Position numbers and translations under genes: made by a program. A stretch of DNA of 64,000 bases, from positions 1 to 64,000 of the forward strand of contig JAJDEW010000023.1 in assembly GCA_029259595.1 (NCBI GenBank), in the 5' to 3' direction. Positions 20,101-40,645 of this stretch are shown here, in pieces. The notes below the pieces were generated by a model. It saw only the letters and a list, made by a program, of their open reading frames with translations. It did no database searches and was not told the DNA's origin. Position 1 is the first letter of the stretch. Each line of letters begins with the position of its first letter. Source of the DNA: Planctomycetota bacterium (lineage in GTDB: Bacteria > Planctomycetota > UBA1135 > GCA-002686595).

Positions 20101-21789
20101 CGCAACGGCGGACGCAACCTGAGCCTCGACGATTGCCCCGACGCCGTGATCTTCAACAACCTCGTCTATGCCGCCGGCTCCTTCGGTCTCGACGTCTCCG
20201 GCGCGCAGTCGGTGGGCGTAGCCATCACGAGCAACACGTTCTACGCCAACCAAGGGGACCAGATCCGGGTCGACGACGGTGCAGCGCTCGTCCGCGTGCG
20301 TGACAACATCGTGGCCTTCGGGCAGGCAGGCGGCATCGTACGCACGGCCAGCGGCTCGATCCTCTCGAGCTTCAACGACGCCTTCGCCAACTTCGGCGGC
20401 GACTGGTCGGGGCTCGGTCCGGGTACGGGCGACCTCTCGCTGGATCCCGCCTTCGTCGATCCCGACGGCGCCGACGACGTCCTGGGCGGCAGCGGAGCGG
20501 ACGACGATCTCTTCCTCGTCGCGCCGGCCAGTCCCACGCTCGACGCGGGCTCCACGCTCGCCAGCTCGGTCCTGTTCCGTGACGGCACGAGTCAGGCCGA
20601 CCGCACGACGCGCTCGGACGGAGTCTTCGATGGAACGCCGCCCGATGCTCCGACCCTCAACCAGGGACATCACCGCGACGCGCCCGTAGGTCTCCTCTTC
20701 GCGAACGACCTGGATGCCGACGGCCGACCCGACGTCGTGTTCGCCCTGCCCGAGGGCCCGGCAGGCGACGAGCTCGGCTTCGAGGTCGGCGTTCGCTTCC
20801 AGAGCGGCGGCGAGCTCCTGTTCTCCGCCACCGCGGACGACGCCGGCTTCGGTGCGACGACGCTCGTCGCAGACCTCGACGGTGACGGTCTCGAGGACCT
20901 CGCGGTCGGCGCGCCGCGGGCGGGCCGCTCGTCCGTGCTCGGCGCGACCGGCCGCGTGTACGTCTTCCTCGGACCGCTCGCCCCCGGCCGACGGTCGGCG
21001 GCTAGCGCGGAGCACGTCTTCGTCGGCGAAGAAACAGGCGAGGCCTTCGGCAGCGCGCTCCTGGCGCTCGCCGGCGGCGACGCGGCGCGAGCGCGACTCT
21101 TGGTCGGCGCGCCCGGGCGCGCGGCAGGCCGCGGCGCCGTGGATCGCTTCGAACTCGGCGCGCCGACGCGCGTGACCCTGCTGGCCCCCGAGCCGGGCGA
21201 GGCCTTCGGGACGTCGCTCGGCCAGACGGGGGAATACTGGATCGTCGGCGCGCCGCAGGCGGACGGCGGGCGTGGTGCGGTTCACGTCTACGCAGGCCTG
21301 GAGACGGAGAGCGACGCCACCGGCGTGCGCTTGTCCGGGAATCGGAGCGAAGCGCGCTTCGGACGCGTGCTGACTGTCGGCGCGTTGGGTGGCCCCGACG
21401 GGACTTACTTGCTCGTCGCCGACGAGACCGCAAGCGTGCACGCCTTCCATGCCCTTCGCCTGGCGAGCCTCGACGGACACGACGCGACGGCGGCCGACTT
21501 CACCATCTCCGGACAACTCGGCTTCGCCGAGCGGCTGGTGACGGCGGACCTCGACGGCGACGGCTACGACGAACTCGTGACCTCCGGAGCGGACGTTCGC
21601 CTCTTCCGTGGCGGACCCGACGTGCGCATCTTCTCCGCCAGCGGCGCCGACCTCGTCCTGCCGTCCACACACGCCCTCCTGGGCGACACGAACGCGGACG
21701 GACGCCTCGATCTCGGCACGACCAGCCCGGGCGAAGCGCTGCGCTGGCGCTTGTCTCCCGGGCTCAGCGCCGCGTCGGCGGCTCGCTGA
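11194..21789 (+). CDS. Giant lipoprotein: 26 Ig-like repeats, beta-helix, FG-GAP repeats
   Basis: This 3531-residue protein starts with a lipoprotein signal peptide ending ALLAAC (Cys20). The start is a TTG at 11194: the in-frame stop at 11113 is followed by no ATG or GTG before the signal peptide. Residues about 30-2810 hold 26 tandem repeats of about 107 residues of the bacterial Ig-like (Big_1, invasin/intimin) type. Each has VADG or VANG, TVTVxDxNGNPVPG, a strand with TGxxN, and AETKxVxAxVDP. Residues about 2815-3130 are a right-handed parallel beta-helix region opening with a DUF1565-like YVRTSGSDADRG. The C-terminus (about 3165-3520) carries FG-GAP/VCBS repeats with calcium-binding DxDxDGxxD loops. 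It is probably a surface adhesin or structural fibre. The 3' end overlaps the convergent gene by 26 bases. Confidence 0.85.
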   Translation: MTPHFRSLAGGLLVALLAACGAGSDAVRSPVSSTGSSLSSNEPSAVADGVDRAEVRITVRDRAGQPLAGRRVVIRSNGRDDVLFQPEERTGPDGTVLAGIASTRAEPKTITAVVDPGSKPVLLEDRVIIGFEASEATISAALSNVELSKAEGLVADGRETVVITATVLDAFANPVPGQIVVITSSGTDNTIEGPAAATDASGRASATLASLAAEDKNLTITINPGPGQVVLDARPKITFVGDRNNVSAALSTIEIDPLGDIVADGSALARIVIVVRDVNENPVRGLPVQVLSTGSGNTIVQPESPTGPDGAATATLASLRAEDKTIAAFVDPLDLGIELDAHPVVPFVADAANPSPTRSTLTAGAPGPFVANGLDGTALTVTVVDPNGNPIEGLEVAFAATGAGNVLTQPGGPTDAAGQASAHLASTVAGSKQVTVVLDPAGSALPVNASATLSFLAGGVSVANSTVTALPATPLVANGVDTFSLAVTLRDAFGNPIQGTTVQLAASGGGNLLNQPVGPSDAQGLAVGSLASTLAETKTISAIADPGGAAFALTAMPTVTFVADTLGVSASLSSVLVDPAVGTVADGLDTAHVTFVVRDAAGQPVPGQTVSFRTSGSPGDVLVQPLGPTDASGLATGTIAATVAETKTIIATVDPGATALDLAEQPLVTFVGDASNLSAALSGLAVAPASVVADGVDAATLTVTARDANGNPVPSISVLFQSSGSKNTVTQRGATALDGTTTGTLRSTRAETKTVTAVLDPGGQNLVVASQPTVTFLADAQNLSPSLSTVVAAPTTLVADGAAATTLTVRVVDVNNNVVPGVVAQLFVDGAGNVLTQPGATGALGTSSGSLSSIRAEEKTVTGVLDPAGLALPLAQPALVLFQADADNPDGTLSALVADPASGVVADGLDASLVTVMVVDANSNPIPGLAVQVSSDEPSDVVTPLAATTDASGSFRAEVTATAAGTRTISAVIDPGGAAVPVVATAALEFEPGAVSPLVSTIAASPTSLVADGIELATLTITLRDANGNAVPGVLVEVDASGTDNTLSQPTGPTDAFGRTTATLASTRAETKVVTAVADPAGTPIALANPAEVVFTADPEAISPTLSTLTAVPLVDVVADGSTASQVTVTVLDENGNPVPGQEVELFSDGTTASFVQPALTDANGQTTGSITSLTAEVVEIGATVNPNTSAVVLGARVAVTFVADPTNIDAGASTVTVTPGTVVANGLDLATITVTVFDINANPIPNVTVALSASGTNNVLAPPSGTTNAAGQLSATLASLRAEPKTISATVDNGVTPTVQLAQMPVVTFIGDVSNPSAALSSVTALPTAGLLANGIDTTTVSIRVVDVNGNVLPGRTVDLAATGSENLVVQPAVTGSSGQATGTLATTRAETKTLSVVVDPLGVAVALDDMPVVTFAADAGNISPTLSSVDLAPRIVVADGVAAATISVTVIDVNGNPVPGVTLGIDSSDPADVIAPPAGPTDAAGFATGSIRSLVAGTKTVTVTADPAGAAVVLPSVQLEFLADADNVSTTLSTVVAAPDTDLVANGIEVSTITVTVVDVNANPIPGLVVELSSTGTANTLTRPAGPTDANGQVTATLASVRAETKVVSAVVDPLGHAVALAATPAVTFLADAANPSPTLSALVMTPPGTVVANGVDVATLTMTVRDVNANPIPGLTVAFSSTGAGTISTPAPTNAAGNATATIHSTVAEANRITGVIDPLGANVTVLDQPVVLFIADADNPSIALSTVGAAPLSGIVANGVAITTIAVTVRDTFGNPIPGRPLSIGVTGTSNMLSAAPDTDAGGSSSATLSSTRAEAKTVTVVYDPSGIALALGSVVVEFVADPTTISAAGSSVSAVPLDGILANGVDTSTISIVVVDAFGNPVPGQNVNVEATGSNNSILQPPAPTDGLGRASATLSSRSAEAKLVTVTVNPAGAALVLLDRPTITFVADPDNISATKSSVVASPDQNVVADGLAASVVTVTVIDSNDNPVPGRLVQLAVSGTNNTVSPLAPTDANGVTSASLTSLTAELKTITAVVDPGVSSILLADAPMVQFVADAANPSATLSSVSAAPASGVVANGVNASTITTVVRDANGNPIPGIAVAVSATGTGNTLVPASGTTAGDGTFVATLSSTTAETKLVTVVADPAGAAVLLAAQPTVDFVADTSNISATLSTVTATPTTGLIADGIESSTLDIQVVDANQNPLPGLPVAIFIGGSQNTLTPPGPYVTDATGRVTALLSSTKSEAKTVFVTADPGGAAIALAAQPVVVFLADSDNISPTLSTVVANPATGVVANGVVASTITVTVVDVNANPVPGQNVLVTASGAGNNLTTASPTNANGVTTVRLTSIVAEPKTVTAVADPLGALIVLSTTPTVEFIADAENISPSLSSLVATPSTGVIADGVDTSTLTVVVRDVNGNVVPGALVQLDVIGTNNTIVQPPPTDAAGMSFGTLASTVAEAKLVRATVDPAGNATLLAAAPTVDFIADVANISVALSLVQASPAIDVVADGATLSTVTVTVLDANQNPVPGQVVELAATGAGNLLVQPSAPTNALGRAIGTLASTVAETKTVSAVVNPGGNSLVLLQQPEVGFVADAANPSAALSNVSADPAKNLIADGAELSTITANVVDPNGNPIAGIEIELSITGLGNTVDIPSSVTDALGNFTATLATTVAETKDVRITVDPSGVAVLLATQPTIEFLADADNISPALSSATISPGAGIPANGLEEAVLTVIVRDVNGNAVPGQNVSFTSPVAGDFLQQPGTTDAGGSASGTIATIEPGARTLNVVVNPFSAPLPLADAPGVVFDEAPLVLYVRTSGSDADRGVLPERAFRTIGHALALAGPTDEIVIGGGTYPGNVLLSSAGLSGAPIRLSGDRDGSRTGDVGPVSFDAGFGPYALRVQAAAHWEITGLDLTGSPFGGFGLVATAQSDGLVLADCNVYGNQTGVRIESSSDVRIEDCRISRNGGRNLSLDDCPDAVIFNNLVYAAGSFGLDVSGAQSVGVAITSNTFYANQGDQIRVDDGAALVRVRDNIVAFGQAGGIVRTASGSILSSFNDAFANFGGDWSGLGPGTGDLSLDPAFVDPDGADDVLGGSGADDDLFLVAPASPTLDAGSTLASSVLFRDGTSQADRTTRSDGVFDGTPPDAPTLNQGHHRDAPVGLLFANDLDADGRPDVVFALPEGPAGDELGFEVGVRFQSGGELLFSATADDAGFGATTLVADLDGDGLEDLAVGAPRAGRSSVLGATGRVYVFLGPLAPGRRSAASAEHVFVGEETGEAFGSALLALAGGDAARARLLVGAPGRAAGRGAVDRFELGAPTRVTLLAPEPGEAFGTSLGQTGEYWIVGAPQADGGRGAVHVYAGLETESDATGVRLSGNRSEARFGRVLTVGALGGPDGTYLLVADETASVHAFHALRLASLDGHDATAADFTISGQLGFAERLVTADLDGDGYDELVTSGADVRLFRGGPDVRIFSASGADLVLPSTHALLGDTNADGRLDLGTTSPGEALRWRLSPGLSAASAAR

Positions 21790-23035
21790 TCGGGAAGGTG
21801 AACGTCCGGCGGTTCTGGTCGCGGCTGCCGTCCCAGACTTCGATCTGCACGGTGTCGGCCTCCGTCGCCGCGGGTAGCGACAGCGACAACGGATAGCGCA
21901 GGCTGCGAAAGTGGCGGCCTTCGCCCTCTTCCGCCAGGCCGCGTCCGAAGCTCGCTTCGGAAAGGTGCACGTCGCCGGCGCGCAGCGAGAAGCCACCGAG
22001 AGCCTCGACCGAGCCCAGATCCAGGACGAAGTCGCCCGACAGCTCGAAGCCCTCCGGCCCCCGTCGCACGATCACGTCCTCGGGCCGAAAGTCGAACAGG
22101 TGATCGGCCGCGATCAGCTCGTCCGCGCGCGCTTGCATCTCGCGGCCGAAGGTGTGCGCGAGCCCTTCCGACACCTTGGTCGAAAGCGCACGCTCGGTCT
22201 GGTCGCTCTCCTTCGCGAGGAAGCCGGCCGGAATGACGAACGACAGGAGGAATGTCCCGGCGTCACCCTCGGCCCGGTCGAGCAGGTCCATCGACGTCTT
22301 CCCGAGGCGGTGGTGCGAGCGCGCCAAGCGCAGCGACGAGTCTTCGAGCAACGCACCCGGTTCGAGCGCGGTGGACAGGTCGTAGATCGACGCGTCGAAG
22401 GACACATCCAGGGCGTAGTCCCGATCGTCGATGACCCAGGTCGCCGGTCCGATCCCGAGCAACAGGATCGACAGGCTGCCCCAGAAGCTCGAGTTGATCG
22501 AGGTCTCCGTCAAGGGCGAGTAGTGGACCACTCCGCGCAAGACGAGATCGGCGTGCACGTCCAGGGCCGCCGCCACCCAGTGCGCACTCTGCTCCTCGCG
22601 GCTCCAGGTCGCAAACTCGGCCGCATCCACGCCGTCGGGATAGGCGAGGACCGTCGCGCGCGTGAAGTAGGCGTGATCCAGGACCTGGGCGATGCGCTCG
22701 GCCACACTCGTCGGGGTCAATGTGAGGCCGAAGCCCGCGAATTCGGGCGCGGCGTTCGTTGCCGTGACCGCGCGGGTCGTGCCCGCCTCGATCACGGTGC
22801 CCTTCGTCGCGACCCCGTTCGTGCGGGGCGCGCCGGTCTCCGGGGTCTCCCCCGAATCGAGCGCGGCACCACCCTCTTCGGCACGCGCGCGCCGCGCCTC
22901 CGGCAACAGCACGAGGGTCTCCGTCGGCAGGACGGCGATGTGGAAGGGCAGCGGCGGTCCCTCGGGTCCGAGCGGCGCCGTGGCGCAGCTCGCGCTTGCG
23001 AGCAGGATCGTCAGGCAAAGAAGGGTGCGGTTCAT
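21764..23035 (-). CDS. Putative lipoprotein of unknown function
   Basis: This 423-residue protein starts with a hydrophobic leader ending LASASC (Cys17), a weak lipobox. A strand IAVLPTE follows, as in outer-membrane lipoproteins of the LpoB/GNA1162 kind, but I cannot confirm that family. A hydrophobic segment (WGSLSILLLGIGPATWVI) lies mid-protein. The start codon overlaps the stop of the upstream pseudokinase gene as ATGA (23032-23035), so translation is likely coupled and the two products probably work together. Its 3' end overlaps the convergent giant-lipoprotein gene at 21764-21789. No catalytic motif is visible. Confidence 0.75.
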   Translation of the reverse strand: MNRTLLCLTILLASASCATAPLGPEGPPLPFHIAVLPTETLVLLPEARRARAEEGGAALDSGETPETGAPRTNGVATKGTVIEAGTTRAVTATNAAPEFAGFGLTLTPTSVAERIAQVLDHAYFTRATVLAYPDGVDAAEFATWSREEQSAHWVAAALDVHADLVLRGVVHYSPLTETSINSSFWGSLSILLLGIGPATWVIDDRDYALDVSFDASIYDLSTALEPGALLEDSSLRLARSHHRLGKTSMDLLDRAEGDAGTFLLSFVIPAGFLAKESDQTERALSTKVSEGLAHTFGREMQARADELIAADHLFDFRPEDVIVRRGPEGFELSGDFVLDLGSVEALGGFSLRAGDVHLSEASFGRGLAEEGEGRHFRSLRYPLSLSLPAATEADTVQIEVWDGSRDQNRRTFTFPISEPPTRR

Positions 23036-26000
23036 CGTTTGTCGGAGGCGGGGCTTTCCCCGGATTCGTTCACGTCGATCCCGAGCTCGAGCCAAGTGTG
23101 AAACCCGTTCAGGACGAAGGCGGCGGATACGGCGCAACGGAAGCCGACGGTCGGATCCCGGCGCTCGCGTGCGCCCTCGCGGGCATTGCTGAAGTCGAAG
23201 CCCGAGCTCTCGTAGTTCCCGCCGACGATCCAGAACTGTCCGGCCGTGGCAAGCTCGTCCTTGGGCGCGGAGGCCTCGCGCAGGCTCGTGCGCATGTGTT
23301 CGGCCATCGACTCGGCCGCGAGCCGTGGCTCGAAGCGGTGTGGCGTCGAGGTCCACTCGGATACGTTGCTGCAGAGCTCGAAGAGCCCGGTCCCCGACGT
23401 CCGGTCGGCGCTGGAGCCGACCGCGACCGGTGCACCGCGAAACTCCTTGTTCGGATCGTAGTTGAAGACCCGAGCGTCCGGCGGTCCGGCCCCGGTGTCG
23501 GCTGCGGAGAACGGGCGGTAGTCCGTGCCGCCGCGCACCGCGAACTCCCATTCGACGAAGGTCGGAAGGCGCTTGCCGACCCAGGCCGCATAGGCGCTCG
23601 CCTCGTTCCAATCGACGCCTGCCACCGGCAGATCACGTCGGCGTGGCGCGAGCGCGGTCAGGAGCTGGTCCCGGCGTGACTCGCTCGGCACCTCGGCGCC
23701 TGTCGGCCAGTGACGCGGGTCGAGGAAGCCGTCCGTGGCCTCCAGGAAGGCACGAAACTCCCCCACCGAGACCTCGCGCTCGTCGAGGTAGTAGGACGCG
23801 ATCTCGCCGGGTCGGTACGGGATCATCCACGACCTCATCCGCGCCTTCGTGTCGAAGCTGGCGAGCCCGTAGCGCACGCGGAAGTCGGTGTTCTCGACGT
23901 CGTCGCCTCGACCACCGAAGAGGTAGGTGCCGTCCTCGTTGCCGCTCACGAGCCGCATCGGCGCGATGCGTGCAGGTGCACCGCGGCGGGTGAACTCCAG
24001 TCGCTTCGCAAGAGTGGGCGCGATCGCCGCGAAGCGCTCGGGCCCCGTGTCCGGCTTCCAATCGACCGCATTGCCCTTGCCGTCGACCGCGTGAAAGCCC
24101 CAGCGCACCTCGCGCTCCGACCAGGCCGCTCCGAGCCGCACCCGGCCGCTCCAGCGATCGGCGCGAGGTTGGCTGCCGGCATCGGAAGCCAGCGGGAATT
24201 CGAACGATCGTTCGGGCTCGTCGGGATGCACCAGGCGGCAGACCAGGGTGGCGACGCCGTTGGCGTCCTCGGCGTTCACCTCGAGCTCGAACCAGCCGCG
24301 GCCGTCGTGCTGCCACACGGGCTCGAGCGGGCCCGCGAGCGCGAGCTCGGGCCCCCGGCGCGCAACCGACCACTCCAGCGTCGCACGCGTCTCGGCGCCA
24401 CTCGCGCGGTCGCGACCGAAGAAGATCAAGTGCAACTCGCCGTCCTGCAGCGCGTCCGGCGCATCGATCAGATCGCTCAGGAGGACCTGGACCGGGGACG
24501 AGGGCCGAACGGGCTCGAGCTCTCCCGTTGCGAGCTCGATCACGCGCAAGCCGGAGTGCACGAGCTTCCAGCGCACATCGAGCGGGTTCTCCCAGGCCTC
24601 GAACTCGCGCGTTTCACCGCTGGCCCGCACCGTCACCAGCGGACTCGCTCCGTGCTCCAGAGAGAACGGAGCGGAATCCGCCTCCTGGTCGCGTCCATCC
24701 TCGACCGCGAGCTCGGCCGGCGTGCGGTCGAGCACCACGAGGAAGGTACGGGCGCCCTCCGTCCACGGCTGCCGGCCGCCACCGGGGTCGACCTGCACCG
24801 GCGCCGCGACGAAGCGGTACACCCCGTCCTCCGCGAGTTCGATCGACAGGCTTGTCTCGTCCGCCCGGAGCGTCGTCGTCTCCGCCTTGGCGTTGCGTTC
24901 ATCGACGCGCATCCGACTCACCTCGACCTCGCTCACGACGCGGGAGTCGCGTTCGAAGGAGAGCTGCATGGCCGTTCGGTTCGTGAAGACGATCTCGTCG
25001 GGGCTGAGCGGCCGCGAAACCTCCCCCTGTCCGAAGACGAGACCGAAGTCGGGAGTTCGTCCGAGGTAGCGCAGGACCAGTTCGGTCCGCAGCAGCTCCG
25101 AGCCACGGTCGACCGCCAACGCCTCGAGCTCGATGCGGCCGGTGAACGAACGGCCCTTCGCCAGGGTGAAGAAATCGATCGGGGCGGCCAGCGCGAGCGT
25201 CTCGGTCGCTCCACCTTCCAGCAGCGCTTCGCCACCTTCTTCATAGAGCCGCCAGGTGACGTCGACGGGGCGATCGAAGCGCGCCACGAGTTCGTCGATG
25301 TCCTCGGTCACGGTGAAGGCTCCGCGCAAGGCGGACGAACCGGCCAGTGCCAGCGCCTCGCAGTGCACGGGACCGAGTTCGATCAGCGCGTTCCAGGGCC
25401 GTCGCTCGACGCGGCCGGAACGGTCCCGAACGACGAGCTCGGCGCCGTCGATCCGCGCACTCTCGCCGAAGAGCTCCGCGAGCTCGACTGCGAAGGCGTA
25501 GGGGACGCTCGGGACGGCTCGGAGCTCGATCAGCGTCTCGCCGCGCGTCAGCCAGACCCCTTCGAACACGTCCGGTCCGAAGGCGCGCGCCGGCTCGGAC
25601 ACATCGAGCTGCACGGTGAGAGTTTCCGTCTTGGACGCGAGCGTCGCTCCGGACTCCGGCGTCGTGCGCGCGATCTTCCAGGCATCGCTTCCGAGCCAGG
25701 AGAGCGTGACCGCATCCGAACGCCAACGGGCGTCGGGCGTCGCGAGCTCGACCTCGAGGTCGAAGGAATCGGTCGCCAGCGCGTCGGTCCCGACCAGCGC
25801 GACACCGCCGACGGCCGGCTCGACCGTCCAGCCCTCGAGCACCTCGCTAGAAGTTGCGTGCAGCGTGAGCCGCACGTCTTGACCGAGCACATCGGGCAAC
25901 CCCGCGTCCTCCGGTAGCGGCAGGACGACACGCGGGCGAGCCGGGCCGAGCCAGCGCTCGTGCGCCGCAGCCGCGGGGAACGCGAAGCCGGTCGGAGCCG

Positions 26001-27345
26001 CCGCTTCCTCGGGAACGAAGCTCGCTTCCGTCGTGCGGCCTTCGTCCGCCGCGGACAAGGCCGCGCCTTCGAGGACCGCCGGTGCGAGCTCGATGGCCAC
26101 GGGTCCGGGGGGCGTCGCACTCGCGCTCTCGTCCTTCGAACCGAGCTCGGCCGCCGGCACGGCCTCCGCCAGGTCCCGCTCGCTCGCCGTCCGTTCACCG
26201 GTAAACCAACCGCCGAACCACGCGCGGGACGAGGCGACCGCCTGGCGTGCGCCGCTGGCGTCGACGGCGACCCAGGATCCGGCTCCGACGAGAAGCAACG
26301 CGCCGATACCGGCCACCAGGTTGCGCTTCCGCCGGCGAGAGTCCACGAGCGGCCGCAGGTAGTCCGCCGCCGCGGCCGCATCCGGGAAGCGTCGCGCGGG
26401 GTCTTTTTCCAGCGCGCGCTCGATGAAGCGTCGCAGCCGGCGCGGAACGCGCGCGAAGCCTTCGAGCCCCATGGGCACGACGCTTTCATGATTCTCGATG
26501 ACATGGCGCCCGTCTCTGAGGTTGCGCCACGGGAAGCCCCCGGTCAGGAGCCGGAAGGCCATGACGCCCAGCGCGTAGAGATCGGTACTCGGCCCGAGCG
26601 GCTCGCCGTTCGGATCGCCCGCGAGCCGCGCGCAGAGCTCTGGCGCGGCGTAGGGCAGCGTCCCGCCCGCCTCGATCTCGCGCAACCTCCCGTGCTCGTC
26701 CTCGACGAGGGGCGTCGGCGCGATGCGGTAAAGATCCTCGCCGCGCAGATCGAAGGCCGTGACCGCGCGCGAGACCGGCGCGAAGTGCCGGCTGAGCCCC
26801 CAGGCCGCAACCTTCACCGTATCGGCCTTGCGATCCATCAAGAGCACGTTGGCGGGCTTCAGGTCCAGGTGCAGCAACGGCCGACCGAACTCCGCCGCCG
26901 AGGTCTCGTGGACCTCCTGCAGCGCGTCGAGCACCTGGAGCAAGATGCGCACCACGTTCTCGTGTTGGAGCGGCTCGTCCTCGTTCAGGAGCTCCTCGAG
27001 CGAGTACGGCTCGAGCCGCTCGTAGACGAGATAGCGCACGCCCTCCGCCGTCTGGTCGAAGGCCAGCCAGCGCACGAGGTTGGGGTGATCGATCTCGGCC
27101 AAGAGCTGCGCCTCGGCCAGGAAGTCGGCGAAGGAATGATCCGAACGCGCCGCCGACGGCGACAGAACCAGGACCGACACCTTGACGCCGAGCAGGACGT
27201 CGGTGGCGTGGCAAAACGCTCCCAGCTCCCCCTCCTCGACCACGCGTTCGAGCCGGTACGAGTCGCCCTGACCCGAGCGGCTGACGAGGATGCTGCCCTC
27301 GAGCCGTCGCCGGATCGCTTCGGTCGGGTCGATTTCGGCTTCCAT
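23032..27345 (-). CDS. Predicted membrane pseudokinase fused to an FGE-sulfatase-like domain
   Basis: This is a 1437-residue protein. Residues about 30-330 have the Hanks-type Ser/Thr kinase fold with HLDLKPANV (Asp161, Asn166), an alpha-C Glu in the FLAEA motif and an APE motif. Key residues are changed: the beta-3 VAVK lysine position is Leu59 (VSVLVLSP), the DFG motif is AWG (181-183), and the glycine loop is degraded, so it is probably a pseudokinase. One TM helix lies at about 342-363. A long exported beta-rich region follows. About 1165-1405 is a formylglycine-generating-enzyme-like domain (VDWNEASAYAAWVGKRLP, GLFELCSNVSEWT, VGFRCA) without the paired cysteines of catalytic FGE. The ATG at 27345 is preferred over an upstream GTG that would overlap the preceding gene. 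It sits 4 bases after the VCBS lipoprotein gene and overlaps the next lipoprotein gene. Confidence 0.85.
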   Translation of the reverse strand: MEAEIDPTEAIRRRLEGSILVSRSGQGDSYRLERVVEEGELGAFCHATDVLLGVKVSVLVLSPSAARSDHSFADFLAEAQLLAEIDHPNLVRWLAFDQTAEGVRYLVYERLEPYSLEELLNEDEPLQHENVVRILLQVLDALQEVHETSAAEFGRPLLHLDLKPANVLLMDRKADTVKVAAWGLSRHFAPVSRAVTAFDLRGEDLYRIAPTPLVEDEHGRLREIEAGGTLPYAAPELCARLAGDPNGEPLGPSTDLYALGVMAFRLLTGGFPWRNLRDGRHVIENHESVVPMGLEGFARVPRRLRRFIERALEKDPARRFPDAAAAADYLRPLVDSRRRKRNLVAGIGALLLVGAGSWVAVDASGARQAVASSRAWFGGWFTGERTASERDLAEAVPAAELGSKDESASATPPGPVAIELAPAVLEGAALSAADEGRTTEASFVPEEAAAPTGFAFPAAAAHERWLGPARPRVVLPLPEDAGLPDVLGQDVRLTLHATSSEVLEGWTVEPAVGGVALVGTDALATDSFDLEVELATPDARWRSDAVTLSWLGSDAWKIARTTPESGATLASKTETLTVQLDVSEPARAFGPDVFEGVWLTRGETLIELRAVPSVPYAFAVELAELFGESARIDGAELVVRDRSGRVERRPWNALIELGPVHCEALALAGSSALRGAFTVTEDIDELVARFDRPVDVTWRLYEEGGEALLEGGATETLALAAPIDFFTLAKGRSFTGRIELEALAVDRGSELLRTELVLRYLGRTPDFGLVFGQGEVSRPLSPDEIVFTNRTAMQLSFERDSRVVSEVEVSRMRVDERNAKAETTTLRADETSLSIELAEDGVYRFVAAPVQVDPGGGRQPWTEGARTFLVVLDRTPAELAVEDGRDQEADSAPFSLEHGASPLVTVRASGETREFEAWENPLDVRWKLVHSGLRVIELATGELEPVRPSSPVQVLLSDLIDAPDALQDGELHLIFFGRDRASGAETRATLEWSVARRGPELALAGPLEPVWQHDGRGWFELEVNAEDANGVATLVCRLVHPDEPERSFEFPLASDAGSQPRADRWSGRVRLGAAWSEREVRWGFHAVDGKGNAVDWKPDTGPERFAAIAPTLAKRLEFTRRGAPARIAPMRLVSGNEDGTYLFGGRGDDVENTDFRVRYGLASFDTKARMRSWMIPYRPGEIASYYLDEREVSVGEFRAFLEATDGFLDPRHWPTGAEVPSESRRDQLLTALAPRRRDLPVAGVDWNEASAYAAWVGKRLPTFVEWEFAVRGGTDYRPFSAADTGAGPPDARVFNYDPNKEFRGAPVAVGSSADRTSGTGLFELCSNVSEWTSTPHRFEPRLAAESMAEHMRTSLREASAPKDELATAGQFWIVGGNYESSGFDFSNAREGARERRDPTVGFRCAVSAAFVLNGFHTWLELGIDVNESGESPASDKR

Positions 27346-32368: not shown

Positions 32369-33766
32369 TCAGCGCGGGAGGTAGGGCTCGAAGAGCTCCG
32401 TCGAAGTCGCCAGCTCGGCCAATGCAGCGGCCTTCGGCGCGGCCAGGAAGACGAGCGGCACGCCCTCGTGCGCGCCGGCCAGCGCGATCGACTTGCGGCG
32501 CCCGAGCTGCTTCTCGACCTCCTTGCGCGACACCGGAGCGAGGCGCGCGTAGCGCTCCGGCAAGTAGCCACCGGTGTCGCCCGCGATCGAGATCACGATG
32601 AGGTCGTTGTGACGCATCGCGGGCAGGTAGCGCTCGAAGCTCTCCTGGTCGTGCGAGAAGCTCGCGATCGAGAACGCGAAGGGCGTGTCGCGGAAGCGTT
32701 CGCGCACCGCATCGTTCGCCGGCCCCGCGATCCACAACGTCGGTCCCGGCCAGGTGTCGTTCAGCTCGTGCACGCCGGTGAACACGTCGCATGCGAGCGG
32801 CAGGAACTCCTCGAGGGTGCGTCCCTCCTCGAGCGCGCGCCGGAAGGCGGGACGCAGGGCGAGCCCGTACATGCGCTGGCGGATGTTCCCGTCGTCGTTC
32901 CACACTCGGCCTTGACGGAGATCGCCTCCGACCATGCGCGCGAGCGGATCGCCTTCGTCCGCTTCGACCAGGCCCGGTCCCATGCCGTAGGCGAAGCCCT
33001 CGCCGAGCACGGTCAGCGACAACCCCGGCGTGCGCTCGACCGCCGCGCGCATGAGCTCCGTGCGCGGCCGGAAGAAGCCGTGCGTCAGCTCGTGGATCAG
33101 GACCCATTCGGTCACGCCCTCGGAGCCGATCTCCCAACGCAGCCGCCCTCCGTCCATCGCGCCACCGCCCGACGTCGGACTCGCGAGCGGAAAGGCCGGC
33201 ACGACCAGCTCCTCGAGGCCGACGAAGCGCGCCAGCCGTTCGGCCACGAATTCGAGCTGGTCGCGATCGACGTCCTGGAAGGCGGAGAGCAGGTGTTCGC
33301 GCTTGTCCGCGAGCAGAGCCTCCACGCGCGGCGCAAAGTGCTCCATCGTCTCGACCACGACATCCGCCTCGGCACGCGTGACGTGCTTGGCCTTCGTGCC
33401 CGCGCGCACGGCGTCGTCGACGTCGAGCGGCACGTAGAAGGTCTGCTCGAGCCCTTGTCCCCAGCGACGCTGCGCGCGCATCGCCGCATAGCGCGCGAGC
33501 ACGTCTTCATCGACCTCGTCGAGCTCCATGTGGTCGCGATACTGCCCATGGCACGCGTTGTCCCAGGCCGACAGCTGGTCGACGACATGGAAGAGGTGCG
33601 CCGTGCGGCTGACGTAGACGTCCAGGCGCAACGGACCGGCTGAGAGCACCAGGTCGGGCTTGGCCCAGTGCTCCCCGCTCGACCCCTTGGGGCCGGTGAC
33701 TCCGGAGCACGGGTCGGAGGGCGCCAGGACGGTCAGGAGCAACGGCAAGAGTGCGTGACACAGCAT
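32369..33766 (-). CDS. Exported HExxH metallopeptidase-like protein
   Basis: This 465-residue protein has a short hydrophobic N-terminus (MLCHALLPLLLTVLAPS) that suggests export. A zinc-binding WVLIHELTHGFF motif places His225, Glu226 and His229 in the classic HExxH arrangement. A downstream GEGFAYGMG could supply the third ligand (gluzincin-like), but this is inference. No other domain is recognised. The gene begins 13 bases after the stop of the membrane-tethered ECF sigma-factor gene, so they are probably co-transcribed. The protease may therefore act on the exported part of the sigma-factor protein or on envelope proteins that signal to it. The substrate is not shown by the sequence. Confidence 0.75.
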   Translation of the reverse strand: MLCHALLPLLLTVLAPSDPCSGVTGPKGSSGEHWAKPDLVLSAGPLRLDVYVSRTAHLFHVVDQLSAWDNACHGQYRDHMELDEVDEDVLARYAAMRAQRRWGQGLEQTFYVPLDVDDAVRAGTKAKHVTRAEADVVVETMEHFAPRVEALLADKREHLLSAFQDVDRDQLEFVAERLARFVGLEELVVPAFPLASPTSGGGAMDGGRLRWEIGSEGVTEWVLIHELTHGFFRPRTELMRAAVERTPGLSLTVLGEGFAYGMGPGLVEADEGDPLARMVGGDLRQGRVWNDDGNIRQRMYGLALRPAFRRALEEGRTLEEFLPLACDVFTGVHELNDTWPGPTLWIAGPANDAVRERFRDTPFAFSIASFSHDQESFERYLPAMRHNDLIVISIAGDTGGYLPERYARLAPVSRKEVEKQLGRRKSIALAGAHEGVPLVFLAAPKAAALAELATSTELFEPYLPR

Positions 33767-33779
33767 CGTTCGTGGAGGG

Positions 33780-36608
33780 CTAGTGGTTCAGGTCGTAGAC
33801 GCGATCCGCGAGGGTCTCGCGGCGTACGGCGACGACGTCGCGGACGAAGACGGTGTCACCGCTGTAGAGCTCGACTTCGACGTCACCTTCCGGGACGGTG
33901 ACGACGTTCTCTTCGTCGCGGTAGAGCTTGGAGTCCGAGAGGATGCTGTCGCCACGTCCGACGCGCAGACGCAGTCGTTCGGCACCGCCCGTGTAGCGCA
34001 CGCGCAGACGTGCGCCCGGTACGAGCACGAGCGCGAGCTCGCTCGAGTCGCCTTCCCCTGCGAGCTCGACACCCGGCAGGAAGGCCACGCGTCCATCGGG
34101 CGTCGAGGCCTTCAGGTCGTAGCGCCCGGGATCGAGCCCCGAGAAGCGGAAACGGCCCGCGCCTCCCGAGAGTCCGATCCCCAAGGAGCCCGTGCGGTTC
34201 GGCAGGGTCAGTCCGACGTGGGCGTCCGTCGCCCTCCCCGTCTCACCGTCGAAGACCGTGCCGTGGATCGCCGGCCCGGACTCCAAGGCCACGAGCACCT
34301 CGGTGTCCCCCGCCTCGGCGAGGCTACCGAAGCCGCGGTCGAGCGCGCCCGGGCTCGTCGCGAAGATGCGGTAGCGCCCTTCGACCAGCGGGCCGAGCCG
34401 GAAGGCGCCGTCGGCCTCCGTCCGTGCCCGGACACGCCCGCTCTCGTCCAGGCGCAAGGCATAGACCATCGTGCGGGAGAGATCGACGTCGAAGCGCGAG
34501 CGGACGCGTCCTTCGATCGCGAGCCCCACGGTGACGACCAGGTCGACCTCGTGCGCTCCCGCAGGACCCTCGAAGCGCAGCGCCTTGGCGAAGGGTGCGA
34601 CGTCGTCGCCCTGCGCCGCCGGACCGAGCCAGTAGCGCCCCGGCAAGAGCCCCTCGAGCGCGTAGCGTCCGTCCTCGTCCGTACGCGTCACGAGCGTGAC
34701 GTCGTTGCGCATGTCGATGTCGAAGAGCCTCCCCGGATCCTCCGCCGCGGGATCCGGATCGGGCGTCAACCCGTCCGGGTGCGCGCGAACTCCGTAGGGC
34801 ACGAGCCACAGCTCGCGGTTCGCAACGGGCTCACCCGTGGCGGTGGCGACGCGTCCGAAGACGCCGTGGGCGCCGTGCAAGGCACCGTTCAGCTCGCGCG
34901 TCTCGCCCGCCGCCATCGTGAGCTCGCCGTCGTGCCGCCACACGAGCTCCTCCCCGCACCAGACATCGACGCGCAACGGAACGTCTCCCGGCAACCCGGT
35001 GAACGGCTCTCCCAGCTTCCCGGACCAGACCGGGTCTTCATCGAAGATATCGGCGCCTGCGGGCTGCACGATGCGTGACGAGTTGGTCCAGACGCGGACC
35101 TCACGCGCATCGCACGGATGGAGCTCCGCACCGTCCAGGTGCACGGTCAGAACGGCCTCCGAGGCGAGCACGACCACGAAGGGCTCGCCCGGCCCCTGGA
35201 GGACGCCGGTCAGCCCGAGCAAGGCGGAGCCGAAACCGGGGGCCGTGATCTCGGCCTGGGCCAGACGCCAGTCGGGGTAGTCGAGCTCGAAGCTGCCGTC
35301 GGCGCCGGCCGCGTGCACGCTCGTGCCGGCTCCGGCCCACAGCGGACGAACGCGCGCGGCGGCGAGCGGAGCTCCGTCCTTGTCGACGACCCGTCCATGG
35401 AAGCGCGCGCCCTCGCCGTGGCGGAGCGCGAGCGTCACGATCTCACGCTCGCCGGGAGCGAGCGCGGCGATCCGGATCCGGCTCGTCTCGATACCGCCAA
35501 TGACGCCGGCCAGGACGCCGGCCTCGTCCGGAGGCACGACGCGGACCGTGAGCTCCCTGTTGGCCGGAACGTTCCAGCTCCCGCGACCGAAGGCGTCGGT
35601 TCGAAGCCGCCCGTCGACCTGCGAACCGGACCGTTCCGCGTAGCCCGCTTCGACGCTCTGCCACTCGATACGCGCACCCGCGACCGACGTGCTGGTCCCG
35701 GCCAGCACGACCTCGAGCTCGACTCTTGCCGTGCCTTCGACGGGTTCGGGCGCAAGACGCGCTTCGAGCTCGGGTCCGCGCTCCGACCCCGGTACGCTCG
35801 AGCGCTCGGGAGCGGAGGGCTCAGGGGCTGGCGCCTGCTGCTCGGATGCCGGCCCGGACTCGAGCGGCGCGGCCGCGTCGGGCACGGCGCTTTCCACCGA
35901 ACGCGCTTCGTCCGGCCCGAGCGAACGCGCCGCGACCGCGAGCAAGCCGGCGGCGACGACGCCGAGCCCCAGCTTGCCGGCCAGGACCAGCGGACCGGCG
36001 AGGGGCGGGAACACGGACGGCGGCACGCTGCGGGCCAGCGGCAAGAGCGCCCTCAGCCATGCCGAGCGCTCACCGTCGAAGTCGCGGTCCAACCGCGCGC
36101 GCAACATCTTCGTCGCGCGCTCGAGCCGGGTCGTCACCGACGCAACGGGCATGCCGAGGCGCTTCGCGATCGTGCGGGGCGGAAGGTCGTCGTAGTAGCG
36201 CATGACGATGACCGTCCGGTACGGCTCCTCGAGCCCCAGTACGGCATCCACGATCCAGCGCTGCGAGCTGAGCCGCTCGTGAACGTCCGACGGCGACGGC
36301 GCGGCCTCGGAAACGGCCACGCGCCGCTCGCGCGCGGTCCGCCTCGCCGCGCTGCGGCCTTCCTGGCGCACGGCGTTGCGGAGCACGGCCGCGAGCCACG
36401 CACGCACCGGACGTTCGCCCGTGCTCGCCCGCTGCCAGGCGTGCACGAGCGTGCTCTGAACCGCGTCGTCCGCGCGCGCCGCGTCCCCCACCAGCCGGCG
36501 CGCCAGCCGCGACAGCCATTCGCAGTCGGCCAGCAAGCCCTCCAACGGCGAGGTCCGGCCGGCCTCGGGACCTGTGTCGGGCAGAGCAGGGGGATCTTGG
36601 GAGCTCAT
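33780..36608 (-). CDS. Membrane-tethered ECF sigma factor with carboxypeptidase-regulatory-like repeats
   Basis: This is a 942-residue protein. The N-terminus is an ECF (sigma-70 family) factor: region 2 at about 22-90 (DDAVQSTLVHAWQR) and region 4 at about 115-172 (EEPYRTVIVMRYYDDLPPR followed by SVTTRLERATKMLRARL). One TM helix follows at about 203-228 (PLVLAGKLGLGVVAAGLLAV). The remaining 700 residues are predicted to be exported and hold several carboxypeptidase-regulatory-like beta-sandwiches (GRVVDKDGAPLAAARV, TDEDGRYALEGLLPGRYWL). Sigma factor, membrane anchor and sensor-like exterior thus lie in one chain. Planctomycetes are known to have ECF factors with long C-terminal extensions. 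The ATG at 36608 fits the usual ECF length; an earlier start would add 15 residues. No separate anti-sigma factor lies nearby. Confidence 0.87.
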   Translation of the reverse strand: MSSQDPPALPDTGPEAGRTSPLEGLLADCEWLSRLARRLVGDAARADDAVQSTLVHAWQRASTGERPVRAWLAAVLRNAVRQEGRSAARRTARERRVAVSEAAPSPSDVHERLSSQRWIVDAVLGLEEPYRTVIVMRYYDDLPPRTIAKRLGMPVASVTTRLERATKMLRARLDRDFDGERSAWLRALLPLARSVPPSVFPPLAGPLVLAGKLGLGVVAAGLLAVAARSLGPDEARSVESAVPDAAAPLESGPASEQQAPAPEPSAPERSSVPGSERGPELEARLAPEPVEGTARVELEVVLAGTSTSVAGARIEWQSVEAGYAERSGSQVDGRLRTDAFGRGSWNVPANRELTVRVVPPDEAGVLAGVIGGIETSRIRIAALAPGEREIVTLALRHGEGARFHGRVVDKDGAPLAAARVRPLWAGAGTSVHAAGADGSFELDYPDWRLAQAEITAPGFGSALLGLTGVLQGPGEPFVVVLASEAVLTVHLDGAELHPCDAREVRVWTNSSRIVQPAGADIFDEDPVWSGKLGEPFTGLPGDVPLRVDVWCGEELVWRHDGELTMAAGETRELNGALHGAHGVFGRVATATGEPVANRELWLVPYGVRAHPDGLTPDPDPAAEDPGRLFDIDMRNDVTLVTRTDEDGRYALEGLLPGRYWLGPAAQGDDVAPFAKALRFEGPAGAHEVDLVVTVGLAIEGRVRSRFDVDLSRTMVYALRLDESGRVRARTEADGAFRLGPLVEGRYRIFATSPGALDRGFGSLAEAGDTEVLVALESGPAIHGTVFDGETGRATDAHVGLTLPNRTGSLGIGLSGGAGRFRFSGLDPGRYDLKASTPDGRVAFLPGVELAGEGDSSELALVLVPGARLRVRYTGGAERLRLRVGRGDSILSDSKLYRDEENVVTVPEGDVEVELYSGDTVFVRDVVAVRRETLADRVYDLNH

Positions 36609-36644: not shown

Positions 36645-36677
36645 CACACCCACGATGCCACGCCGTGCAAAAAGCCC

Positions 36678-39266
36678 TCAACTCGAGGAGGATTTCGCGC
36701 CCGTCGCGGAACCGTCGCCCCTGGCGCCGGTGCGCGTCGCGCGACCGCTCGCCAGGCGCAGAGCATTCTCGATCAAACCCAGGTGCGAGTAGGCCTGGGG
36801 GTGGTTGCCGAGCGAGATTCCGCCGTCGGGGCCGTATTGCTCCGCGTAGAGCCCGGTGGGCCCCGCCAGATTCGAGAGCGCTTCGAACAGCGCGCGTGCA
36901 TCGTCCTCGCGCCCGACCAGCCAGTAGGAATCGATCAACCAGGAAGCGCAGACGTGAAAGCCGCCCTCGATCCCGGGCAAGCCGTCCTCGATGCGGTAGC
37001 GGAAGACCGTCGGCCCCACGCGCAGCTCGCGCTCGATCGCTTCGACCGTCGCGACGAAGCGCGGGTCCCTGGGGTCGACGAGGCCGCTGATCCCGATCCA
37101 CAGGGCGGCGGCATCGAGCTCCGGCGCGCCGTAGGCTCCGGTGAAGGCCTGGCGCTCCTCGCTCCAACCCTTCTCGAGCACGTCCGCGCGGATCGCGTCG
37201 CGCAGCGCGATCCAATCCGGGCGCTCCTTTTCGTGGAACACCCGCGCGATGGCGATCGCGCGGTCGACCGTCAGCCAGCACATGACCTTCGAGTGCACGT
37301 GGTGACGTTGGGCGGTGCGCACCTCCCAGATGCCATGATCGGGCTCGTCCCAGCGGGCCGCGACGGCGGAGACCATGGCTTCGACGAGTCGCCAGTGCTC
37401 GGAGGAGAGCGGCGCCTCGCGCACGAGGAGGTCGTGGATCAACTCGACGATCGGGCCGAAGACGTCCAGCTGAACCTGGTTCGCGGCCAGGTTGCCGACG
37501 CGCACGGGGCGCGACCCGCGGTAGCCGCACAGTTCGCCGATCTCCGCTTCGGAGTCGACCGACGCACCGCTCAGTTTGTACAGCGGTCGCAGGTTGGCAG
37601 GCGAGCTCGTGTTGTCGAGTACGCCGAGGACCCAGTCGAGGTAGTGCATGGCCTCGCTGATGCTGCCGAGCTTGACGAGCGCCGAAGCGGACAGGGCCGC
37701 GTCGCGTAGCCAGCAATAGCGATAGTCCCAGTTGCGCACGCCGCCGATGTGCTCGGGCAAGCTCGTGGTGGCGGCGGCGGCGATCGCTCCGCTCGGCGAG
37801 TAGCAGAGCGCGCGCAGCACGAGCGCGCTGCGTTCGATCAGTTCGGTGGCGACGTCCGGCAAGTCCAGGGTGCCGGCCCAATCGGCCCAGTAGGCGCTGG
37901 TGAGGTCGCGCCGCTCGTGACCCAGCGCGACGGTGTCGCGCAGCGAACCGACGCCATAGCGCAGATCGAGGACGACCGCTCCCCCGTCGAGCTCGACGTG
38001 CGCGACCGCGGTCTGGTGCATGCCGTGGTCCTCGACGGTCCACACCACTCCGGGCGAGCGCAGGACGATCGGATCGTGGGAATTGCGGATGACGAGCCCG
38101 TGCTCGTGCACTTCCAGCGAGGTTGCCATGCGCCCGAATTCGAGCCGCGGCGCGAACTCGATCTCGACTGGCCCGCGCCCCTCGAGGATCCGGATCAGGT
38201 CCGAGCGCCCGGCGCGCTGCCGCGGCCGACCCTGGGAACAGTCGAAGAAGTCGGTGACGCGAAAGCCCTCGAAACGCGTCTCCAGCACCATGGAACCCGG
38301 GCGGTAGCTCTGCCCGGTCGGACGCGAGCCGTCCGCGGCGCGCACCGCGAAGAAGCCGGCGCTCGGACCGCCGACCAACTCGGCGAAGATCGCCGGGCTG
38401 TCCAGGGCCGGCAGACACAGCCAGTTGATGCGCGCGTCAGGTGTCACGAGCGCGGAAGTCCGTTGATCGGAGATCAGAGAGTGCTCTTCGATCGGGACGC
38501 TGCCCGCGCTCGTCAACCACTCGCTGCGCAGCTCGCAGAGCTGGGCGAGCAGGACGGCGACGTCGGTCGTCTCGTCGACGCGGTAGGCCGCGAGCGTCTC
38601 GCCCTCCCCGACCTTGACGCCGATGTCCGGCCCCTTCAGCGTGGCGAAGGCGTCCTCGTCGGTGAGGTCGTCCCCGAAGAAGATCACGCACGAGGCACCG
38701 ATGCGCTGGCGCAGGATCTCGATCGCGAAGCCCTTGCTGGTCGCGAGCACGGAGAGCTCGATGACCTTCTTGCCGTGGCGGGTCTGCACGTCGGCGATCT
38801 TGGCCGGGCCCTCCTCCACCGCCGCGAGCGCTTCGCGTCCGACGTCCTCGGGCGCGCGGCGGTAGTGGAACGCGACGCTGGCGGGTTTGATCTCGATGTG
38901 CAGGCCTTCGTGTCGCTTCGCGATCGCGCCCAGTTCGTCCACCAGGCGGTCGCGCAGTTGCACCAGGTCCTCGGAGAGCACCTGCGAGAAATCGAGATCG
39001 AATTCGCTGCCGTGGCTGCCGATCAGGCGGATGCCGTCGCCGAAGCCCGAGAGGTCGGCCAGGTCGCGCAGAGCGCGCCCCGAGATCACGGCGACATGGG
39101 TGTTCGCGAGCCCCGCCAGCGCGCTCAGCGCCACCTGCGTCTCGCGCAGAGGGCGGGCGTCGGCGGGGTCGGGCACGATCGGCGCCAACGTCCCGTCGTA
39201 GTCGCTCGCGACCAAGAGGACGGGGGCGCGCGCGATCTCCTCGAGTCGATCCTTGAGTTCGGTCAT
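36678..39266 (-). CDS. Trehalose-6-phosphate phosphatase fused to GH15 trehalase-type hydrolase
   Basis: This is an 862-residue fusion. Residues about 1-255 are a HAD-type trehalose-phosphatase (SDYDGTLAP with nucleophile Asp22 and acid Asp24; FFGDDLTDEDAF as the acidic motif), which makes trehalose. Residues about 265-840 are a glycoside hydrolase family 15 domain close to bacterial GH15 trehalases: RNWDYRYCWLRDA, GYRGSRPVRVGNLAANQVQL, HGIWEVR (likely catalytic Glu), AEQYGP, and GNHPQAYSHLGLIENA. One cytoplasmic protein could therefore both finish trehalose synthesis and degrade trehalose or related glucosides. The ATG at 39266 overlaps the otsA stop (ATGA), which indicates coupling and fixes the start. 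Phosphatase-GH15 fusions are known in other bacteria; the exact GH15 substrate is inferred. Confidence 0.9.
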   Translation of the reverse strand: MTELKDRLEEIARAPVLLVASDYDGTLAPIVPDPADARPLRETQVALSALAGLANTHVAVISGRALRDLADLSGFGDGIRLIGSHGSEFDLDFSQVLSEDLVQLRDRLVDELGAIAKRHEGLHIEIKPASVAFHYRRAPEDVGREALAAVEEGPAKIADVQTRHGKKVIELSVLATSKGFAIEILRQRIGASCVIFFGDDLTDEDAFATLKGPDIGVKVGEGETLAAYRVDETTDVAVLLAQLCELRSEWLTSAGSVPIEEHSLISDQRTSALVTPDARINWLCLPALDSPAIFAELVGGPSAGFFAVRAADGSRPTGQSYRPGSMVLETRFEGFRVTDFFDCSQGRPRQRAGRSDLIRILEGRGPVEIEFAPRLEFGRMATSLEVHEHGLVIRNSHDPIVLRSPGVVWTVEDHGMHQTAVAHVELDGGAVVLDLRYGVGSLRDTVALGHERRDLTSAYWADWAGTLDLPDVATELIERSALVLRALCYSPSGAIAAAATTSLPEHIGGVRNWDYRYCWLRDAALSASALVKLGSISEAMHYLDWVLGVLDNTSSPANLRPLYKLSGASVDSEAEIGELCGYRGSRPVRVGNLAANQVQLDVFGPIVELIHDLLVREAPLSSEHWRLVEAMVSAVAARWDEPDHGIWEVRTAQRHHVHSKVMCWLTVDRAIAIARVFHEKERPDWIALRDAIRADVLEKGWSEERQAFTGAYGAPELDAAALWIGISGLVDPRDPRFVATVEAIERELRVGPTVFRYRIEDGLPGIEGGFHVCASWLIDSYWLVGREDDARALFEALSNLAGPTGLYAEQYGPDGGISLGNHPQAYSHLGLIENALRLASGRATRTGARGDGSATGAKSSSS

Positions 39267-40645
39267 TCGGAGAGCGCGTTCAGGAAGGTTTCCGCCCAGC
39301 GGTAGACGTCGTTGAGCTTGACCGATTGGCGCATGGCACGCATCCGCTTCTCCACCTCCTCGGTCGGAAGGCTGAGAGCCATGAGCATTTTTGCCGCCAG
39401 GCCGTCGATGTCGTGCGGATTGACCTGCAGGGCGCCCTGGAGCTCCTTGGCAGCGCCGGCGAACTCGGACAGGACCAGCACGCCCGTATTGTCGAGACGC
39501 GTCGAGACGAATTCCTTGCAGACCAGGTTCATCCCGTCCCGCAGCGGGGTCACCAGCATCACGTCGGCGGCCAGGTACAGCCCGACCAACTCCTCGATCG
39601 GCAGGTTCTGGTGTAGATAGTGAATCGGAACGCGGCCCAGCTTGCCGTGCGTCCCGTTGATCTTGCCGACCAGCTGCTCGACGGCGCCCCGCAGGTCGGC
39701 GTAGTCGTCGACGGCCTCCCGACTCGGGACGGCCGACTGCACGAGCACGCATTCGTCCGCCGAAAGGTCGCTGCGTTCGAGCAGTTCCCCGAAGGCACGC
39801 ATGCGAATGTCGATGCCCTTCGTGTAGTCCATGCGGTCGACGCCGAGGATGATCTTGCGTCCGTGACCGAGGCGCCGGCGGATGGCTTCGGCCTGGATCT
39901 GCACGTCTTCCTGCTGTGCCAGGCGCTCGAAGCGGTCGACGTCGACGGAGATCGGAAAGGCTCCGTAGCGCACGCGGCGGCTCTCGAACGTGAGCTCTCC
40001 CGTACGGCCCTCGGCGTGGGTGAAGCGCCGGCAGAGCTGGGCGAAGTTCTGCGCCCCACGACGCGTCTGAAAGCCGACGACGTCCGCTCCGAGCAATCCG
40101 GTGAGGATCTCCCGCCGCCAGGGAAGCTGCGCGAAGAGCTCCTGCGGCGGCATCGGGATGTGCAGGAAGAAGCCGACCTTGAGGTCGGGACGCTTCTCTC
40201 GCAGCATCCCGGGGACGAGCTGCAGGTGATAGTCCTGAACCCAGACCGTGCCGCCCTCTTCGGTGTGGCGCGCGGCGGCCTCGGCGAAGCGCCGGTTGAC
40301 CTTGACGTACGGCCACCACCAGCGGCGGTGGAACTCCGGGCTGCGCACGGCATCGTGGTAGAGCGGCCAGAGCGTCCTGTTCGAGAAGCCTTCGTAGTAG
40401 TCCTCGAGCTCGCCGCGCGAGATCGGAACCGGCACGTTGGTGATGCTCTCGTGTTCGAAGGGCGCCGGCACGCTGCCCTTCGTCCCCGCCCAACCGATCC
40501 AGATGCCGCGCTCCTGTTGCAGGATCGGGATCAGGGCGGAGACGAGCCCGCCCGGACTGATGTGCCACTCCGACTCTCCGTTCCGCCGGACCCGGTTCAC
40601 GGGCAGACGGTTGGCGACGACGACGAGTCGGCTCGTTGCAGGCAT
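39263..40645 (-). CDS. otsA: Trehalose-6-phosphate synthase
   Basis: This 460-residue GT20 glycosyltransferase makes trehalose-6-phosphate from UDP-glucose (or another NDP-glucose) and glucose-6-phosphate in the cytoplasm. Family signatures are all present: VVVANRLPVNR at the N-terminus, PGGLVSAL, WVQDYHLQLVP (about 135-145), HIPMPP (162-167), GVDRMDYTKGI (268-278) with the phosphate-binding residues, and PLRDGMNLVCKE near the C-terminus. Length matches bacterial OtsA. The start at 40645 is chosen because MPATSRLVVVANRLP aligns with family N-termini; an upstream ATG would add 21 unlikely residues. Its stop overlaps the start of the phosphatase-GH15 gene. Confidence 0.95.
   Translation of the reverse strand: MPATSRLVVVANRLPVNRVRRNGESEWHISPGGLVSALIPILQQERGIWIGWAGTKGSVPAPFEHESITNVPVPISRGELEDYYEGFSNRTLWPLYHDAVRSPEFHRRWWWPYVKVNRRFAEAAARHTEEGGTVWVQDYHLQLVPGMLREKRPDLKVGFFLHIPMPPQELFAQLPWRREILTGLLGADVVGFQTRRGAQNFAQLCRRFTHAEGRTGELTFESRRVRYGAFPISVDVDRFERLAQQEDVQIQAEAIRRRLGHGRKIILGVDRMDYTKGIDIRMRAFGELLERSDLSADECVLVQSAVPSREAVDDYADLRGAVEQLVGKINGTHGKLGRVPIHYLHQNLPIEELVGLYLAADVMLVTPLRDGMNLVCKEFVSTRLDNTGVLVLSEFAGAAKELQGALQVNPHDIDGLAAKMLMALSLPTEEVEKRMRAMRQSVKLNDVYRWAETFLNALSE

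Follow-up and report, generated by a model that had tools for sequence, protein, structure and literature searches.

A planctomycete family of putative membrane-tethered ECF sigma factors with carboxypeptidase-regulatory-like exterior parts and a shared promoter-like motif

The stretch analysed here (64,000 nucleotides, contig JAJDEW010000023.1 of assembly GCA_029259595.1 from a Planctomycetota bacterium; hereafter the window) carries on its minus strand, at positions 33780..36608, a gene for a protein of 942 residues, in which an extracytoplasmic function (ECF) sigma factor, a single predicted membrane helix, and a carboxypeptidase-regulatory-like part are joined in one chain. This architecture occurs far beyond chance and is kept in all 53 relatives scanned, each of which possesses sigma regions 2 and 4 together with CarboxypepD_reg. 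We consider it fairly probable that its product acts as a one-component receptor in the membrane with a sigma factor as its output, which would probably be auto- or cross-regulated and may be released by proteolysis.

The reading frame extends from an ATG at 36608 to the stop at 33780; an alternative in-frame GTG is situated at 36653, but the N-termini of the family agree better with the ATG. Concerning the sigma part, Pfam matches were obtained for Sigma70_r2 (PF04542, residues 31-89, positions 36342..36518; 1.4e-8) and for Sigma70_r4_2 (PF08281, residues 117-169, positions 36102..36260; 6e-12), i.e., only regions 2 and 4 of sigma-70 are present, without region 3, as is characteristic of ECF factors. 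The NCBIfam family sigma70-ECF (TIGR02937) is matched at 4e-18, with 65.5 bits against a cut-off of 42.9. In addition to Q51, region 2.2 contains an acidic motif (ADD, within RADDAVQ) similar to the DAED motif that serves core binding in ECF sigma factors (PMC8999054), and its positions are occupied by A in 96%, D or E in 91%, and D in 93% of 68 family members compared. Directly behind region 4, R170 is invariant across members. Between region 4 and the helix lie about 30 residues in all, a distance that is too short for the usual anti-sigma domain, and this interval includes a juxtamembrane segment, GERSAWLRALLPLA (residues 179-192, positions 36033..36074), with the family consensus GGDRxAWLxALxPLA; among the 68 members, W184 is found in 87%, L188 in 82%, and P190 in 65%. 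Pfam matched no zinc-finger anti-sigma domain in the window protein, and none is included in the 25 families that gave the most frequent matches to the 53 members.

The only hydrophobic segment of the protein (residues 207-225, positions 35934..35990; hydropathy 2.17) is followed by the putatively exported part (positions 33783..35891), which consists of a linker and of repeated beta-sandwiches of the transthyretin type, comprises about 700 residues, and matches CarboxypepD_reg at 3.6e-26 in four stretches, the best of them at residues 698-765. An initial annotation of the locus had described the two ECF regions, the helix, and a carboxypeptidase-regulatory-like part of this length, and all of these are borne out by Pfam, NCBIfam, hydropathy, and the relatives. 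Its view of a membrane-tethered ECF factor with an exported, sensor-like part in a planctomycete likewise gains support. According to hydropathy only, a hydrophobic segment (>1.5) is situated near residue 203 in 66 of the 68 members, few of which appear to contain further helices, and the net charge before the helix exceeds that after it in 52 of 68, as under the positive-inside rule; we infer that the sigma domain would be cytoplasmic and the beta-sandwich part outside.

The window's own genome contains 25 ECF factors of this build, including the window copy, with about 500 to 1,220 residues (two of the 25 are cut or short). Across the class, matches (E<=1e-20) were found in 97 of 154 genomes, mostly in open frames of 700-1,400 codons; a genome often contains many copies, and copy numbers are here lower bounds, at most 18 candidates per genome having been scored. 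In a sample of the phylum Planctomycetota, 83 of 392 genomes gave matches at E<=1e-30. Full-length identity to the window protein ranges from 22 to 31% among members. The genes are mostly solitary and their neighbours varied, a co-directional gene being situated within 100 bp at 10 of 64 loci.

Many family genes are preceded by a bipartite, ECF-like promoter motif, TGAAYC-N13-GCGGCAT, which in most cases is situated 15-25 nt from the start. It occurs in 25 of 68 family genes as opposed to 15 of 405 controls, and with at most two mismatches in 17 of 68 as opposed to 3 of 405 (p 6e-13), the controls being other genes of the same loci and both these and the start codons being taken from our own gene calls. 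The enrichment is confined to a spacing of 13, whereas spacings of 11, 12, 14, 15, and 16 exhibit none that is comparable. In de novo motif discovery, each of the four training folds yielded the GCGGCAT half, which none of the null runs did, and TGAA.C was recovered jointly with it in one fold. The result was replicated on a further 37 genes, which were taken for the most part from other families in the phylum and had played no role in motif discovery: at most three mismatches were present in 14 of 37, compared to 19 of 517 controls (p 9e-10), again with a peak at N13. As the same motif precedes many of the family's own genes, it suggests that the members are probably auto- or cross-regulated. 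An AAC-like -35 element before the own gene, as in ECF-type promoters, is seen in the family and only weakly in the window copy.

The fit of the sigma domain to the family profile is related to the quality of the motif, better domains going with better motifs (p 2e-4). This bears on the possibility that the protein is mainly a structural or adhesion protein of the envelope, in which the sigma domain is a relic. The rapid divergence of the exterior part and the persistence of many copies would agree with such a role; however, conservation along the chain is highest in the sigma domain in all members, with the acidic motif of region 2.2 and region 4 intact, and the promoter-like motif tracks this domain, such that a relic appears highly improbable. 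The sigma domain rather looks functional, because regions 2 and 4 are conserved and a promoter-like motif is common to the family genes.

For the mechanism of the proposed receptor, tethering, perhaps together with the GGDRxAWLxALxPLA segment, would keep the sigma factor inactive or confined to the membrane, and a signal perceived outside by the beta-sandwich part would free or activate it. The likeliest route would be regulated intramembrane proteolysis, i.e., a cut outside followed by one of a site-2 protease of the M50 type, after which the free sigma factor would drive promoters of the form TGAAYC-N13-GCGGCAT. Several M50 peptidases are encoded in the own genome. Release by site-1 and site-2 proteolysis is proposed here by analogy to IutY, a precedent for the proteolytic release of an ECF factor fused to a membrane part, and proteolytic release is also predicted for ECF48, ECF52, and ECF53 (PMC8999054).

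Alternatively, the sigma domain might act while tethered, the exterior part changing its conformation or clustering, so that proteolysis would not be needed. In this it would resemble membrane-bound one-component regulators, e.g., ToxR or CadC. The single helix with its short conserved juxtamembrane segment would fit such a mode of action, as would the lack of a detected fused anti-sigma domain and of a conserved protease neighbour, whereas a sigma factor has to reach the polymerase and scattered promoters, and IutY, the studied membrane-fused ECF factor, is activated by cleavage (PMC8999054). Action in the tethered state is thus regarded as unlikely, though it deserves serious attention.

Several observations weigh against the proposed receptor. 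A tethered sigma factor could act without release, the case for proteolysis being argued by analogy, and the hydrophobic segment and the positive-inside bias fall short of proving the topology. The single-sequence structure model of the window protein was uninformative (pLDDT 37) and was discarded. The p-values given for the motif are optimistic, because the family members are related and not independent. Before the window gene itself, only a weak copy of the motif is found (GTTGAGGGC-N12-GTGGCATC, positions 36654..36682, minus strand, overlapping the stop codon of the preceding gene); it has four mismatches, and its score of 8.6 is reached by about 30% of control genes, so that it is not significant alone. 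Finally, a scan of the own genome with a simple pattern gave 137 matches, compared to 174 for a reversed-pattern control, and the regulon is thus not defined. The mapping of promoter targets, which the initial annotation had proposed, yielded a motif common to family genes, whereas a regulon derived from the simple pattern had to be rejected for want of any excess over the control. As an anecdotal observation, the sole exact consensus match in the own genome (L121, G000:C22:5688-5713) is followed, at a distance of 47 bp, by a gene for an exported protein of the beta-lactamase family.

The gene that begins 13 bp downstream of the window ECF gene (positions 32369..33766, minus strand) encodes a putative gluzincin-type HExxH protein of 465 residues. 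Its N-terminus resembles a signal peptide and residues 225-229 read HELTH, which confirms the exported HExxH protein described for this position. It matches no Pfam or NCBIfam family. In alignments of five proteins of its family, H225, E226, H229, and E256 are invariant, which corresponds to the gluzincin pattern, and from this pattern E256 is a likely ligand; the homologues also begin signal-peptide-like. A structure model from two sequences was of low confidence (pLDDT 58), and no significant match in the PDB was obtained by fold or by sequence. The family is rare, with six loci in the genomes searched and a remote match in G314, and plasmid and phage collections contained no relative.

It had further been suggested that the protease senses or trims the exported part of the sigma factor, a proposal that can be put as a dedicated pair: the exported protein would cut the exterior part (site 1), or be sensed by it, and the sigma factor would be released. 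As a rule of the ECF family, linkage to a protease was rejected by the counts of neighbours. Of 64 family loci at which the downstream gene could be read, only that of the window has an HExxH neighbour, and among 31 further loci two have one (L161 and L181). Locus L161 was reached through the protease search and not by an unbiased draw, and it is excluded from the total of 94 loci, in which there remain the window and one non-homologous HExxH neighbour; the latter lies within the background, 2.8% of genes encoding HExxH. This neighbour (L181:5181-6254, HECTH, 176 bp downstream of its ECF gene) has no Pfam match, and as a candidate relative of the window protease it was dismissed, no relationship being detectable.

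What stood of the suggested linkage is that the same pair recurs in the distant planctomycete G166 (L161:5219-8451), in the order and on the strand relation of the window and with an overlap of 4 bp instead of a gap of 13 bp. The HExxH protein of G166 bears a repeated C-terminal module. The two ECF proteins are not sisters, each appearing far down the match list of the other (ranks 91 and 81), with which a quick tree is concordant. The pairing therefore either originated on two occasions or was retained in these two and lost in others. Besides the shared order and the distant relationship of the two sigma factors, the invariant HExxH and E256 and the signal-peptide-like starts speak for a dedicated pair, and the probability of finding one of the remaining five loci in such a position by chance amounts to about 0.1-0.5% (a rough estimate from small numbers). 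However, the homologue is not beside such an ECF gene at four of the six loci (G032, G089, OFTM205, and a second copy in the own genome), so that only two, the window and G166, are paired; the ECF factor most closely related to that of the window is encoded in G032, and yet the HExxH homologue of this genome is situated on another contig. Moreover, nearly all ECF factors of the family are without a protease neighbour, such that this cannot be the general route of activation. Altogether, the linkage is not a general one, nor can it clearly be called an accident, and the pairing may be functional; a dedicated pair as the explanation of the system is considered improbable. Within the preferred reading of a tethered sigma receptor, the co-encoded protein of the window and of G166 may, speculatively, modulate the exterior part. 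Two genes from the HExxH homologue of G032, a CarboxypepD protein is encoded that lacks a sigma part and has a hydrophobic segment at its N-terminus (L032:8792-11299).

The nearest known kinds are the membrane-fused groups ECF48, ECF52, and ECF53, IutY, and the WD40-fused ECF factors of planctomycetes. In the three actinobacterial groups (e.g., SCO4117), ECF factor and membrane helix are likewise found in one chain, with proteolytic release proposed, and SCO4117 shares with the window family an exterior, sensor-like part (PMC8999054). These groups possess a zinc-finger domain of the anti-sigma type, one or two helices, and extensions of up to about 400 residues (PMC8999054), whereas in the window family no anti-sigma domain was found, the helix is single, and the carboxypeptidase-regulatory-like exterior part comprises about 700 residues. 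Similarly, in IutY (ECF243) of Pseudomonas putida the sigma factor is fused to its membrane regulator and is set free when Prc and RseP cleave the protein (PMC8999054); its fused anti-sigma part is of the iron-starvation, cell-surface signalling type, of which none was found in the window family. A large, beta-rich C-terminal extension is shared with ECF57 and other WD40-extended factors, for which many paralogues are reported from Planctomycetes (PMC8999054, PMC8567305), but these have WD40 propellers instead of beta-sandwiches behind a conserved helix. As at the window locus, proteases occur in the gene context of ECF54 (PMC8999054). That context (carboxypeptidase, subtilase, CHAT) is conserved; no such conserved neighbourhood was found at the loci of the window family, where the HExxH neighbour, itself a member of an unnamed family, is rarely present. 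In the literature, no ECF factor with the present architecture was found, and the family may already bear an ECF group number.

Upstream of the ECF gene and on the same strand, a GT20 trehalose-6-phosphate synthase (39263-40645) and a fusion of a phosphatase with a trehalase-like GH15 domain (36678-39266) are encoded, the latter ending 69 bp from the ECF start. A sigma-70 promoter scan of the ECF locus found none, and a terminator-like site at 36675-36689 is no better than chance. Elsewhere in the window, a protein of 1437 residues combines a protein kinase domain with a sulfatase-modifying-factor (FGE) domain (23032-27345), and a protein of 3505 residues (11272-21789) contains 26 matches to Big_1 or invasin D3 repeats, together with beta-helix and FG-GAP repeats.

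Most ECF sigma factors depend on a separate anti-sigma protein for sensing outside. It is possible, as a tentative generalization, that planctomycetes possess a large family of sigma receptors composed of a single protein, with up to 25 or more members in a genome, which replaces sigma/anti-sigma pairs, connects varied exterior sensors to one class of promoters, and in some lineages employs a dedicated exported gluzincin as trigger. A widespread group of proteins uniting sensor, membrane anchor, and sigma factor in one chain, of which a single genome carries 25 and whose genes have a promoter-like motif in common, would constitute a different mode of signalling in a phylum that has received little study, and the motif offers a directly testable handle on the targets of the family.
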